The notes beneath the pieces were generated by a model. The model ran no database searches. It had not been told where the DNA came from and was given only the letters and a program-made list of their open reading frames with translations. A stretch of 64,000 nt of DNA from Candidatus Obscuribacterales bacterium (GTDB lineage: Bacteria > Cyanobacteriota > Vampirovibrionia > Obscuribacterales > Obscuribacteraceae), in NCBI GenBank assembly GCA_031292355.1, contig JARLHI010000003.1:248001-312000 (forward strand), given 5' to 3'. Both the position numbers and the translations under genes were made by a program. Positions 23,807 through 26,021 of this stretch are shown piece by piece. Numbering within the stretch: the stretch's first letter is position 1; each line of letters opens with the position of its first letter.

Positions 23807-23835
23807 TTGACATGTTCTCGTTGCTCGCTTAGGAT
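23807..23835 (+). promoter_or_regulatory. Predicted aspS leader promoter
   Basis: -35 TTGACA (23807-23812), 17-bp spacer, -10 TAGGAT (23830-23835; 4 of 6 to consensus). The RNA would start near 23842, giving a 5' leader of about 228 nt before the aspS GTG, enough to hold the leader peptide frame and attenuator. Confidence 0.65.
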
Positions 23836-23862
23836 GACACTCTGGTCCTGCAAAAAGCGATA

Positions 23863-24000
23863 TTGATTTTGTTTTCTCTGGCAAATAGCACTAAGCATTG
23901 GAAATTTGCGTTTGTAAACGCAGGTCTTCACGCTGCTGCCAGAAACAATAATAACGACGATGACGCAAACCCCTTGCGGTTAGACAGTAACGCCTTTTAG
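23863..24000 (+). CDS. Putative aspS leader peptide with four Asn then three Asp codons
   Basis: An open frame ends at TAG 23998-24000 and contains, without interruption, AAC AAT AAT AAC GAC GAT GAC (23944-23964), that is Asn4-Asp3, then Ala-Asn. The frame is open back to a TAG at 23830. There is no ATG or GTG; TTG at 23863 or 23869 would start it, with only a weak A-rich/AAG ribosome site, so the 5' end is uncertain. The segment after the Asp codons contains the antiterminator arm. Placed before a gene for an aspartyl-tRNA synthetase, this is the expected shape of a leader peptide that senses charged tRNA-Asp and tRNA-Asn. Confidence 0.6.
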   Translation: MILFSLANSTKHWKFAFVNAGLHAAARNNNNDDDANPLRLDSNAF

Positions 24001-24055
24001 CACCAAGCCTGAAAGTACTGCCGAGCCGCAAGATTTGAATCTTGCGGCTCTTTTT
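23964..24055 (+). promoter_or_regulatory. Putative Asn/Asp-responsive transcription attenuator of aspS
   Basis: Three alternative pairings. Arms 1:2, CGCAA (23964-23968) with TTGCG (23974-23978), a hairpin starting at the last base of the last Asp codon. Arms 2:3, CTTGCGGTT (23973-23981) with AGCCGCAAG (24024-24032), 9 pairs with one G-T. Arms 3:4, the terminator, GAGCCGCAAGATT (24023-24035) with AATCTTGCGGCTC (24038-24050), followed by TTTTTATTT. Stalling on the Asn/Asp run would cover arm 1, free arm 2 and prevent the terminator. The terminator ends only about 4 bases before the aspS GGAG site, so it cannot be serving an upstream gene on this strand. Read by eye, no folding run. Confidence 0.8.
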
Positions 24056-24069
24056 ATTTGGAGAAAATC

Positions 24070-25404
24070 GTGGAAAACGAGCAAACGCAATCACCGTCCA
24101 CCATAGTTACGATCAAATCTCTGCCCACAAAAATCGGTTCAGAACAAACTGTTCAAGGACACGTGCATGCGATTAGACGCCTGGGCAGTCTAGTCTTCAT
24201 GATCATCCGAGATCAAAGTGGGCTTTTGCAAACAGTCGTAGAAAATGAATTACTTGTGTCTTTGATTGACCAGGTCAATCCAGAGACACCAGTGGTAGTA
24301 TCGGGGGTCGTAGTTGCACACAAGGGTAGTCCCCTCGGCGTAGAGATGCAACTGACAAGTCTGCGTGTTTTAACCCGTTGCGAAGGCATCTTGCCCGTTG
24401 AAATCGCCAAAGAAAACAAACTGACGTCTGTTTCGTTACCTGTGATGCTTGATTATCGCCCTCTGACCTTAAGGGCGCCATCCATTCGCTCCATTTTTCA
24501 AGTGGAAGCGCAAATCTGCGCGGGCTTTCGAGAGTTTTTGAGTAACCAAGAAAAACCATTTATCGAAATAAACACTCCTAAACTGGTTTCTACAGGCACT
24601 GAAGGCGGTGCGCAGCTTTTCAAACTGGACTACTTCGGTAAAACTGCATATCTCGCTCAAAGTCCACAATTCTACAAACAGATGATGGTTGGAGCGCTCG
24701 AGCGTGTTTACGAAATTGGACCAGTGTACCGTGCCGAAGAGCACGATACGAGCCGCCACATCAACGAATACGTGAGCATGGACGTAGAGATGGGCTTCAT
24801 CAGCGGTCCAGAAGATGTAATGCAGATTCTCGAACAAGCCGTTAAACATATAATTGCTCGTCTAAAGAGCCAATGCGTCGAACAACTGAGCTTGCTCAAC
24901 GCAGTGCTGCCCTCGACGGAAAAATTCGCTGTTGTGACTTTGCCTGAAGCAATGACTATCCTCAAAGAGAAAATGGGTTGGGCTGGCGCCGAAGAAGGAG
25001 ATCTAGACCCGTCTGGAGAAAGACTTCTTTGTCAATATTTCGATGAAAAAGAAGGCGTAGAATTTGTTTTCGTGACTGGCTATCTGCAGTCTGTGCGCCC
25101 TTTTTACGCCATGCCGACAATTGGCAGCAATGCCACCTGTAGCTTCGACTTGCTCTTTCGCGGAGCAGAAATAAGCACTGGCGGCCAACGCATCCACGAA
25201 TACAAACAACTGGTAGAAAGGATAGAAAGTCGCAAAATGGTTGTCGAGAATTTCTCTGACTACCTGCAATGCTTCAAATACGGTATGCCACCACATGGAG
25301 GTTTTGCGATTGGTCTGGAGAGATTTACCCAGCAATTATTAAGGCTACCGAGCATAAAACTCGCAAGCCTCTTTCCGCGCGACTGTAATCGTTTGACCCC
25401 GTAA
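24070..25404 (+). CDS. aspS: Aspartyl-tRNA synthetase, archaeal/short type (probably non-discriminating)
   Basis: Class II synthetase that activates Asp and loads tRNA-Asp. About 444 residues: N-terminal OB-fold anticodon domain (to about 105), then the catalytic core with motif 2 YRAEEHDTSRHINEY and motif 3 GGFAIGLERFTQQLLRL, ending FPRDCNRLTP, the AspRS rather than AsnRS ending. It lacks the roughly 130-residue GAD insertion of the usual bacterial enzyme (about 590 residues), so it is the archaeal/eukaryotic type. Such enzymes in bacteria often also charge tRNA-Asn with Asp, to be amidated by GatCAB. GTG start with GGAG 6 bases upstream. Controlled by the preceding attenuator. Confidence 0.9.
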   Translation: MENEQTQSPSTIVTIKSLPTKIGSEQTVQGHVHAIRRLGSLVFMIIRDQSGLLQTVVENELLVSLIDQVNPETPVVVSGVVVAHKGSPLGVEMQLTSLRVLTRCEGILPVEIAKENKLTSVSLPVMLDYRPLTLRAPSIRSIFQVEAQICAGFREFLSNQEKPFIEINTPKLVSTGTEGGAQLFKLDYFGKTAYLAQSPQFYKQMMVGALERVYEIGPVYRAEEHDTSRHINEYVSMDVEMGFISGPEDVMQILEQAVKHIIARLKSQCVEQLSLLNAVLPSTEKFAVVTLPEAMTILKEKMGWAGAEEGDLDPSGERLLCQYFDEKEGVEFVFVTGYLQSVRPFYAMPTIGSNATCSFDLLFRGAEISTGGQRIHEYKQLVERIESRKMVVENFSDYLQCFKYGMPPHGGFAIGLERFTQQLLRLPSIKLASLFPRDCNRLTP

Positions 25405-25496
25405 ACTCAAAGACACTTTGCATGGCATGCTTGCAAGATTTGTATTATGATTTGCAAACCCTGATTTCTATTTGAGCGATTGGAGTCTATAGCAAA

Positions 25497-26021
25497 GTGT
25501 CTTTGAATTTGTCGAAATATCGGTTGGTGTTGCTCATAAGCCTGCTTTGGGTGACTACTGGGAGTTCCTCATGGGGAAGCGATATTGCCCCTCCCGTATC
25601 GAAGAGTTTTGCCTATTTTGATCTCAAAGTAATCAGAAATACGTTTCCGGATTCGGTGACATTCGAGCAATCGCGATATAGCGGTGAGGATGCACTACGC
25701 AATAGCGCCAACGAAGCCAATCAACAACTGAAACAGTTTGAAGCTGAAAATCATTCAGTGGAAGAAATTCAAAAAGAGAAGCAAAGATTGCAGTCAGCCG
25801 TCGACGCTAAGACGAGCACATTTGTTCGACAAATGCTTGCCTCAAATCTCAATATCACTGAGAAAATAAAACATGCTGCAAGTACTGTGGCTGAATCCCA
25901 CAACGTCGACGTGGTGCTAGATGCAAACTCGGTCTTTTTCGGAGGCGGCAAAATTCTCGAGAATGGTATTGATGTCACCGCCGAAATGATGAAGATTCTT
26001 GGCACCAATCCCTCAGAATAA
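25497..26021 (+). CDS. OmpH/Skp-family periplasmic chaperone-like protein
   Basis: 174 residues: signal peptide (about 1-28), then the OmpH pattern: a short N-terminal strand FAYFDLKVIRNTFP, a long charged helix rich in Gln/Glu (NQQLKQFEAENHSVEEIQKEK), and the C-terminal VAESHNVDVVLDANSVFFGGG ... NGIDVTAEMMKIL closing strands. Skp/OmpH trimers hold unfolded outer-membrane proteins in the periplasm. GTG start, TTGGAG about 10 bases upstream. Follows aspS by about 90 bp; co-transcription not evident. Confidence 0.82.
   Translation: MSLNLSKYRLVLLISLLWVTTGSSSWGSDIAPPVSKSFAYFDLKVIRNTFPDSVTFEQSRYSGEDALRNSANEANQQLKQFEAENHSVEEIQKEKQRLQSAVDAKTSTFVRQMLASNLNITEKIKHAASTVAESHNVDVVLDANSVFFGGGKILENGIDVTAEMMKILGTNPSE

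Follow-up and report, generated by a model that had tools for sequence, protein, structure and literature searches.

An asparagine/aspartate-codon leader with a predicted terminator switch ahead of the archaeal-type aspartyl-tRNA synthetase gene of Obscuribacteraceae

In the DNA analysed here (the window, 64,000 nucleotides of Candidatus Obscuribacterales bacterium), the gene for an archaeal-type aspartyl-tRNA synthetase, aspS2, follows a short frame carrying a run of Asn and Asp codons and a terminator with an alternative pairing. We are confident that AspRS2 is controlled by a ribosome-mediated transcription attenuator whose leader peptide senses both Asn-tRNA and Asp-tRNA. The gene is probably switched on when charged tRNA for either amino acid runs short. 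The codon run, its frame, the presence of both residues, the alternative pairings and their conservation were observed directly, and the Asn/Asp leader is a real feature, not a chance pattern.

The aspS2 locus

The aspS2 gene lies at 24070-25404 on the forward strand, encodes 444 aa and has a GTG start preceded by GGAG at 24060-24063. Its product matched two profile models, both named aspartate--tRNA(Asn) ligase: NF003483 with 523 bits (cut-off 353) and TIGR00458 with 393 bits (cut-off 368). The best match among solved structures was 1n9w, titled aspartyl-tRNA synthetase 2, and AspRS2 aligned end to end with its 422-aa chain, showing no large insertion of the GAD type. This bears out an earlier sequence-only reading of the locus, which took the enzyme to lack the bacterial GAD insertion and to be of the type that commonly charges both tRNA-Asp and tRNA-Asn. 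On the latter point the enzyme exceeds the curated cut-offs of both models; the specificity of the enzyme, and hence its putative nondiscrimination, is inferred from those family models. At the residues that concern the anticodon loop, nondiscriminating AspRS has His/Pro as against Trp/Lys. The AspRS2 of the window has H33 and P88, but 30 aligned relatives vary (column 33 holds 14 Q, 9 H, 4 Y, 2 E and 1 L), so these residues leave discrimination unsettled. Downstream, a 15-bp inverted repeat (25407-25421 and 25492-25506) separates aspS2 from the next gene, whose GTG start (25497) lies inside the 3' arm; the repeat folded with z -2.6, and 0/200 shuffles were as good.

The leader ORF occupies 23863-24000 on the forward strand and ends in TAG at 23998-24000. 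In the window translation this frame reads ...LHAAARNNNNDDDANPLRLDSNAF / ...NNNNDDDANPLRLDSNAF up to the stop. At 23944-23964 (forward strand) it contains the proposed sensor, four Asn codons followed by three Asp codons (AAC AAT AAT AAC GAC GAT GAC), as the sequence-only reading had stated, and this run has counterparts in 42/43 family genomes. That reading had also named the leader start as its weak point, and the weakness persists: the only in-frame starts are TTG codons, at 23863 or 23869. A sigma-70-like promoter, TTGACA-17 nt-TAGGAT, was placed at 23807-23835 on the forward strand by consensus match only (10/12).

An intrinsic terminator stem-loop of 12 pairs, found by both the pattern scan and folding, lies at 24023-24050 on the forward strand, followed by TTTTTATTTG with the T tract at 24051-24055. 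It was the one terminator-like site in the scan (0.9 expected in shuffles), and the promoter-like sites numbered two, one per strand (0.8 expected). The scan by itself therefore proves nothing. Folding adds an antiterminator 5' strand, CTTGCGGTT, at 23973-23981 (forward), which pairs with 24024-24032 (AGCCGCAAG). A segment 1:2 hairpin at 23964-23978 (forward), joining CGCAA at 23964-23968 to TTGCG at 23974-23978, is a possible anti-antiterminator known from folds only, and its conservation was not counted.

The leader as a whole folded better than its shuffles (z -3.4; 0/200 as good). We modelled the stalled state with a ribosome at the first Asn codon and RNA free from about 23957, a footprint that was assumed. 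When transcription had reached the terminator loop, the antiterminator, 23973-23981 with 24024-24032, was then the preferred fold at -24.4 kcal/mol. With the ribosome at the stop codon, the terminator alone formed (-21.6 kcal/mol). Alternative pairings, as expected of the antiterminator/terminator switch that had been proposed ahead of aspS, are thus present (23973-23981; 24023-24050). Once the terminator was fully transcribed, its fold was the most stable even with the ribosome stalled (-35.2), and the switch therefore has to be kinetic. The antiterminator of this locus is among the weaker ones (z -1.998, matched by 11/300 shuffles). It is unexceptional alone, and the case depends on the relatives.

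In the proposed mechanism, leader translation, stalling, the response to charging and the dual tRNA specificity are all inferred. When Asn-tRNA and Asp-tRNA are both plentiful, the ribosome would pass the N/D codons and reach the stop at 24000. There it would cover the antiterminator segment, letting the terminator form and leaving aspS2 off. Should either charged tRNA run short, the ribosome would stall within the run with the antiterminator segment free, and this segment could then capture the emerging 5' arm of the terminator so that transcription enters aspS2. Codons for both amino acids would suit an enzyme that is presumed to attach Asp to tRNA-Asn as well as to tRNA-Asp, with GatCAB then converting the charged tRNA-Asn.

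Conservation in Obscuribacteraceae

A search of the family at E 1e-80 found AspRS2 in 44/50 genomes. One genome (G061) was left out since its contig ends at the gene, and one locus (L029) was replaced by a longer one (L034). This left 43 genomes with upstream DNA, including the window's own and one with a divergent AspRS2 (G024), which was kept. In 42/43 of them, an N/D-codon run scoring 4 to 11 lay in a short frame ahead of a T-tailed hairpin. Codon conservation across relatives, which the sequence-only reading had proposed as a check, is thus borne out, with N and D occurring together in 42/42 runs. Loss of the frame with the terminator retained, which would have spoken against that reading, was not seen in the 42 loci. 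The exception, G024 (L035), had no N/D run upstream and only a weak hairpin. By eye its upstream DNA contains a T-box-like GGCACCGC; there was no Rfam match in L035 even at E 1.

Typical leaders of the family read MFNYSANNNNNNDNNDCLLLRVALRLSRS, MIIITLTTNNNDDANNCLWRSSGSWFN and MSAFIINNNNNDDNNNHVLRLFPHVLVITH, each up to its stop. A strict run of four codons lay within 400 nt upstream of AspRS2 in 41/42 loci, the G010 run falling short with NDDKNDN. An in-frame ATG was available in 30 of the 42 leaders and a GTG in nine; three, including that of the window, had TTG only. A TTGAC-type promoter-like pair preceded the run by 200 nt or less at 38/42 loci. The T-tailed hairpin was called at all 42, that of G005 by a re-call downstream of the leader stop under laxer limits. 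First-order Markov shuffling of these upstream regions (100 shuffles for each of the 42) produced a run scoring at least 4 in 40/4200 cases and one scoring as high as that of the window locus in 3/4200.

The residues of the 42 runs comprise 212 N, 100 D and only 9 others (6 S, 2 A, 1 K). A sensor of one amino acid only, Asn for instance, with Asp codons as neighbours tolerated through single A-to-G changes, could account for the excess of N and for its opening the run in 35/42 leaders. It fits poorly with the presence of D in 42/42 runs, when all residues other than N and D total nine, and with leaders that consist mostly of D (NDDDD, DDDN). We consider this reading unlikely, and return to it below with the leaders of other phyla.

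The pairing potential of the leaders is also conserved. Between run and terminator, the segment that best complements the 5' arm of the terminator begins a median of 6.5 nt past the run in the 42 loci. It ends a median of 13 nt before the stop codon, and the stop lies a median of 26 nt from the terminator. Compared with shuffles the complement had a median z of -4.3; it was reached by 0/300 shuffles at 22/42 loci and by at most 3/300 at 32/42. At six of the 42, the window locus included, z was above -2. The pairing of segment and arm is kept despite sequence change: 41 loci yielded 33 distinct triplets, many of which closely resemble one another. Examples are TTGCGG, paired with CCGCAA arms; GCTGGTGG, whose partner arms are CCCACC and CCGCC; and GCCATGGC, which pairs with GCCACGGC.

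These patterns bear on whether the run is merely a low-complexity repeat or an untranslated RNA element. Seven-codon N/D runs do occur elsewhere in the window's genome (G000), with 13 and 19 overlapping matches on the two strands, and the backwards pattern gave 4 and 30. Since such repeats are common, counting seven-codon N/D runs across 40 genomes gave no useful test. Against a repeat, the runs show third-base and N/D exchanges. In 16 within-genus pairs of equal-length runs, codon differences fell 37 times at position 3, 32 times at position 1 (the N/D exchange) and four times at position 2; these pairs overlap, and the runs themselves are defined by N/D codons. The frame is open with an ATG or GTG in 39/42 leaders, and the run keeps a steady position relative to the antiterminator and the stop. 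Nor does a comparable leader precede AsnRS or AspRS1. An N/D run of at least four codons was found within 400 nt upstream of 0/30 AsnRS genes (27 from the family, 3 from its sister family), and a run plus terminator upstream of 0/21 AspRS1 genes, although one of these (L326) has a four-codon run without a terminator. The AspRS1 set covered 21 genomes; the G000 copy was checked against the family models and the others were labelled by search match. A mere repeat or an untranslated element is a very improbable explanation.

Several points count against the attenuator. The leader start at the window locus is limited to TTG. The last codons of the run lie so near the antiterminator that a stalled ribosome might partly cover it, and the leader frame ends only past the antiterminator segment. 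No such leader precedes the divergent AspRS2 of G024, and N/D-codon runs are also found elsewhere in the genomes.

AspRS2 leaders in other phyla

We compared 80 AspRS2 loci in a distant set, one of which (L113) belongs to the Obscuribacterales family. A T-box motif was found by regular expression at 34/80. Rfam called T-boxes at 7/20 of the loci tested, and at 11/15 chosen for earlier matches or the motif, placing T-boxes ahead of AspRS2 in Bacillota and Chloroflexota. By eye, a T-box-like motif also precedes aspS2 in Actinomycetota plasmids. In Paenibacillus hemerocallicola (L114, about 1915-2001) a T-box is followed by a short ORF, MDDGDDDDDDDDNNFALRN..., that runs into the start of aspS2, as if two sensors were stacked. 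With T-boxes so placed on the same gene, the sensing in Obscuribacteraceae might be done by a tRNA-binding T-box and not by a leader peptide. The window and six family loci, however, gave no match to RF00230 at the Rfam gathering score, and the Rfam scan of the window found nothing; we give a T-box here almost no credence.

Deinococcota have a short frame with paired N/D codons before AspRS2 at 7/7 loci, reading MLRRRDDNP, MRGLLNNDR, MRLPQGNDA, MCPRLLNNG, MTHLAFSDDNSGSGRLGA, MTNALALRTDDNSDSRPLGA and MQVFNVDSRDDDNF up to their stops. A terminator was called after five of the seven; in the two Thermus species the hairpin is GC-rich but has no T tract. A rule based solely on how far a frame lies from a promoter-like pair recovered 6/7 Deinococcota leaders (L172 was missed), along with one unrelated frame among 72 other loci; it was written after the Deinococcota loci had been inspected. 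In a proteobacterial MAG (L183) the leader MDDNDDDVRRRLL, ending in a stop, precedes AspRS2, with no terminator called. Plasmid-borne aspS2 genes of Rhizobium and Devosia (L348, L350, L351, L352) have an Asn-run leader (NNN), MSMQRNIAVNNNGPFGVVDGVRAL with its stop and kin, and a hairpin seen by eye. These are four loci of six such matches; plasmid aspS2 overall was represented by 9 of 21 matches.

Sensing of Asn alone draws some support from these leaders: those of Rhizobium and Devosia contain N only, and one in Deinococcota (MCPRLLNNG, L127) has NN and no D. The T-box specifiers of distant AspRS2 genes cut both ways. Among the ten alignments shown, two carry AAC (L168, L189), the Asn specifier, whereas eight carry GAC and read Asp, each assigned by convention.

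A quick tree was built of 70 AspRS2 proteins, from 23/43 family genes, 40/80 distant loci and 7/9 plasmid loci. T-box labels on it came from the motif, from Rfam (L147, L125) or, at plasmid loci, by eye. The 22 leader-bearing family members and the seven Deinococcota each grouped with SH-aLRT 100, and the AspRS2 of G024 fell elsewhere on a long branch. The label for an N/D leader required three changes, at least two of them forced by starred branches, with gain and loss not distinguished.

Second-copy synthetases, purpose and known systems

Besides AspRS2, the window's genome encodes AsnB (C71) and two further synthetases that exceed their cut-offs: an AsnRS (C9) and an AspRS1 of bacterial type (C83), which scored 827 bits with NF001750. 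AspRS2 is therefore not the sole source of either charged tRNA and is an extra enzyme in this genome. The sequence-only reading had foreseen GatCAB without asnS. Its first half stands as far as GatA (C53:102972-104438) and GatB (C15:57435-58859), GatC having been outside the search; its second half fails, AsnRS being present over cut-off. The combination that would have refuted it, asnS without GatCAB, is absent, as GatA and GatB accompany asnS.

Across the family, gatA was over cut-off in 42/50 genomes, gatB in 37/50 and AsnRS in 31/36 (not found over cut-off in G002, G003, G010, G015 and G024), so most members, G000 included, hold both routes to Asn-tRNA. Two genomes of at least 90% completeness, G010 and G015, have no AsnRS over cut-off, yet possess AspRS2 and GatB. 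A lack of GatCAB in one genus (g23) was considered when gatB was missed in G022 and G032; gatA is in both and gatB over cut-off in 4/8 genomes of the genus, and assembly gaps are therefore likelier. Separately, G002, 96% complete, has GatB but neither AspRS2 nor an AsnRS over cut-off, and its remaining AspRS may be nondiscriminating.

Leaders of this kind are not confined to aspS2. In G000 the second SerRS (C60:19325-20611; L221, L265) is preceded by the leader MQTVIQQFIFAPSSSSPSKRRMRAHYIV, with its stop, and a terminator. SerRS2 was defined by at least 51% identity to this protein (TIGR00414, over cut-off), and 20/21 matches had a locus in the scan; G003 yielded no other SerRS. A Ser run scoring at least 3, in a frame that opens with ATG, preceded 16/20 SerRS2 genes, and the script found a GCCCGC...GCGAGGC terminator at 12/20. 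By contrast, 0/10 SerRS1 loci had both a Ser run and a terminator; a three-Ser stretch occurred in four of the ten, once in an ATG frame and once in a TTG frame. For ThrRS, 26/30 loci were scanned (L301 had too little DNA). In all three ThrRS2 loci (L219/L295, L296, L297) Thr codons cluster within a short ORF that precedes a terminator, TTST being the weakest cluster, and such a leader was found at 0/22 ThrRS1 loci. That attenuators on synthetase genes are rare, as had been assumed for this locus, does not hold within the family, given the cognate leaders on second SerRS (16/20) and ThrRS (3/3) genes. Second-copy synthetases carrying such leaders are an apparent rule in the family.

Two single cases were seen in G001: an IleRS gene (L236) with a terminator and a short ORF ending QSLIIIL ahead of it, and a ProRS gene (L226) whose upstream DNA has a terminator and a short ORF containing three Pro codons. 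Upstream of the IleRS and ProRS genes of G000 the script found neither run nor terminator.

What AspRS2 is for is a separate matter from what its leader senses. AspRS2 with GatCAB could be a starvation-induced route that makes Asn on tRNA, and not a spare synthetase for blocked or failing enzymes. Thermus and Deinococcus have both routes to Asn-tRNA, and their second AspRS works with GatCAB in this way, according to one report (PMC4206432). The frequency of gatA and gatB in the family, the five of 36 genomes in which AsnRS was not found over cut-off, and the pairing of AspRS2 with GatB in G010 and G015 all suit such a route. On the other side, AsnRS is present in 31/36 genomes and AsnB in G000, so Asn need not arise on tRNA there, and the second SerRS and ThrRS serve no such route yet carry the same kind of leader. 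A starvation route remains quite possible, if somewhat short of an even call.

A leader answering to both tRNAs suggests a conditional spare. A review (PMC9437257) lists SerRS2 as albomycin-resistant and describes second SerRS, IleRS and TrpRS enzymes by which antibiotic producers survive. A role as spare enzymes is therefore reasonable, though it has not been shown. On the broadest interpretation, the family keeps spare synthetases, each silent until its own leader peptide lacks charged tRNA. AspRS2 would be the spare for AspRS1 directly and for AsnRS via GatCAB, its leader therefore reading both codons. The Asn/Asp leader would have arisen more than once on aspS2 (in the Obscuribacterales family and Deinococcota, perhaps also in a proteobacterial MAG, and with Asn alone on plasmids of Rhizobium/Devosia); in other phyla a T-box takes its place. 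We hold this interpretation as evenly balanced between right and wrong.

As inferred here, the leader is a clear two-amino-acid attenuator, family-wide, whose codons match the pair of tRNAs that a single synthetase is presumed to serve. It makes testable why bacteria with direct routes retain an archaeal-type AspRS2. Thermus can be grown and manipulated, and the Deinococcota leaders bring such a test within its reach.

No report of an Asn/Asp leader was among the matches listed in the open-access literature, and an earlier prediction is not excluded; Lopatovskaya 2010 is said to be a comparative study of synthetase attenuators. Leader-peptide attenuation of the trp/his/phe type is well known, the E. 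coli pheST leader included. The AspRS2 leader shares with it a short ORF of cognate codons, a competing antiterminator and terminator, and a gene concerned with the same amino acid. It differs in having two amino acids that meet on one enzyme, in a host of cyanobacterial lineage and, compared with the textbook trp leader, in a stop codon lying beyond the antiterminator segment. On cyanobacteria, a 2016 paper (PMC4833913) states that there were no reliable data on attenuation.

Attenuators on synthetase genes, partly on paralogs as here, include predicted His leaders on hisZ and hisS* in bacilli (PMC2965389) and those on trpS2 and leuS in Streptomyces (PMC1262725). Each concerns one amino acid, whereas the AspRS2 leader reads two, is found in 42/43 family genomes and is joined by leaders on several other synthetases of the family. 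The two-codon T-box on the transamidation operon of Clostridium acetobutylicum, which senses tRNA-Asn and tRNA-Glu (Saad 2013, via PMC4052509), likewise serves two tRNAs with one RNA in a pathway of tRNA-dependent transamidation. From what that secondary source relates, it binds tRNA directly without translation, and has tRNA-Glu where the AspRS2 leader has tRNA-Asp. The AspRS2 T-boxes of Bacillota and Chloroflexota share the gene and the logic of sensing tRNA charge, but do so with an RNA aptamer and specifier codon and no leader peptide. The mechanism proposed here is thus ordinary leader-peptide attenuation; what is new is the amino-acid pair, the gene, the host lineage and the apparent second-copy rule.
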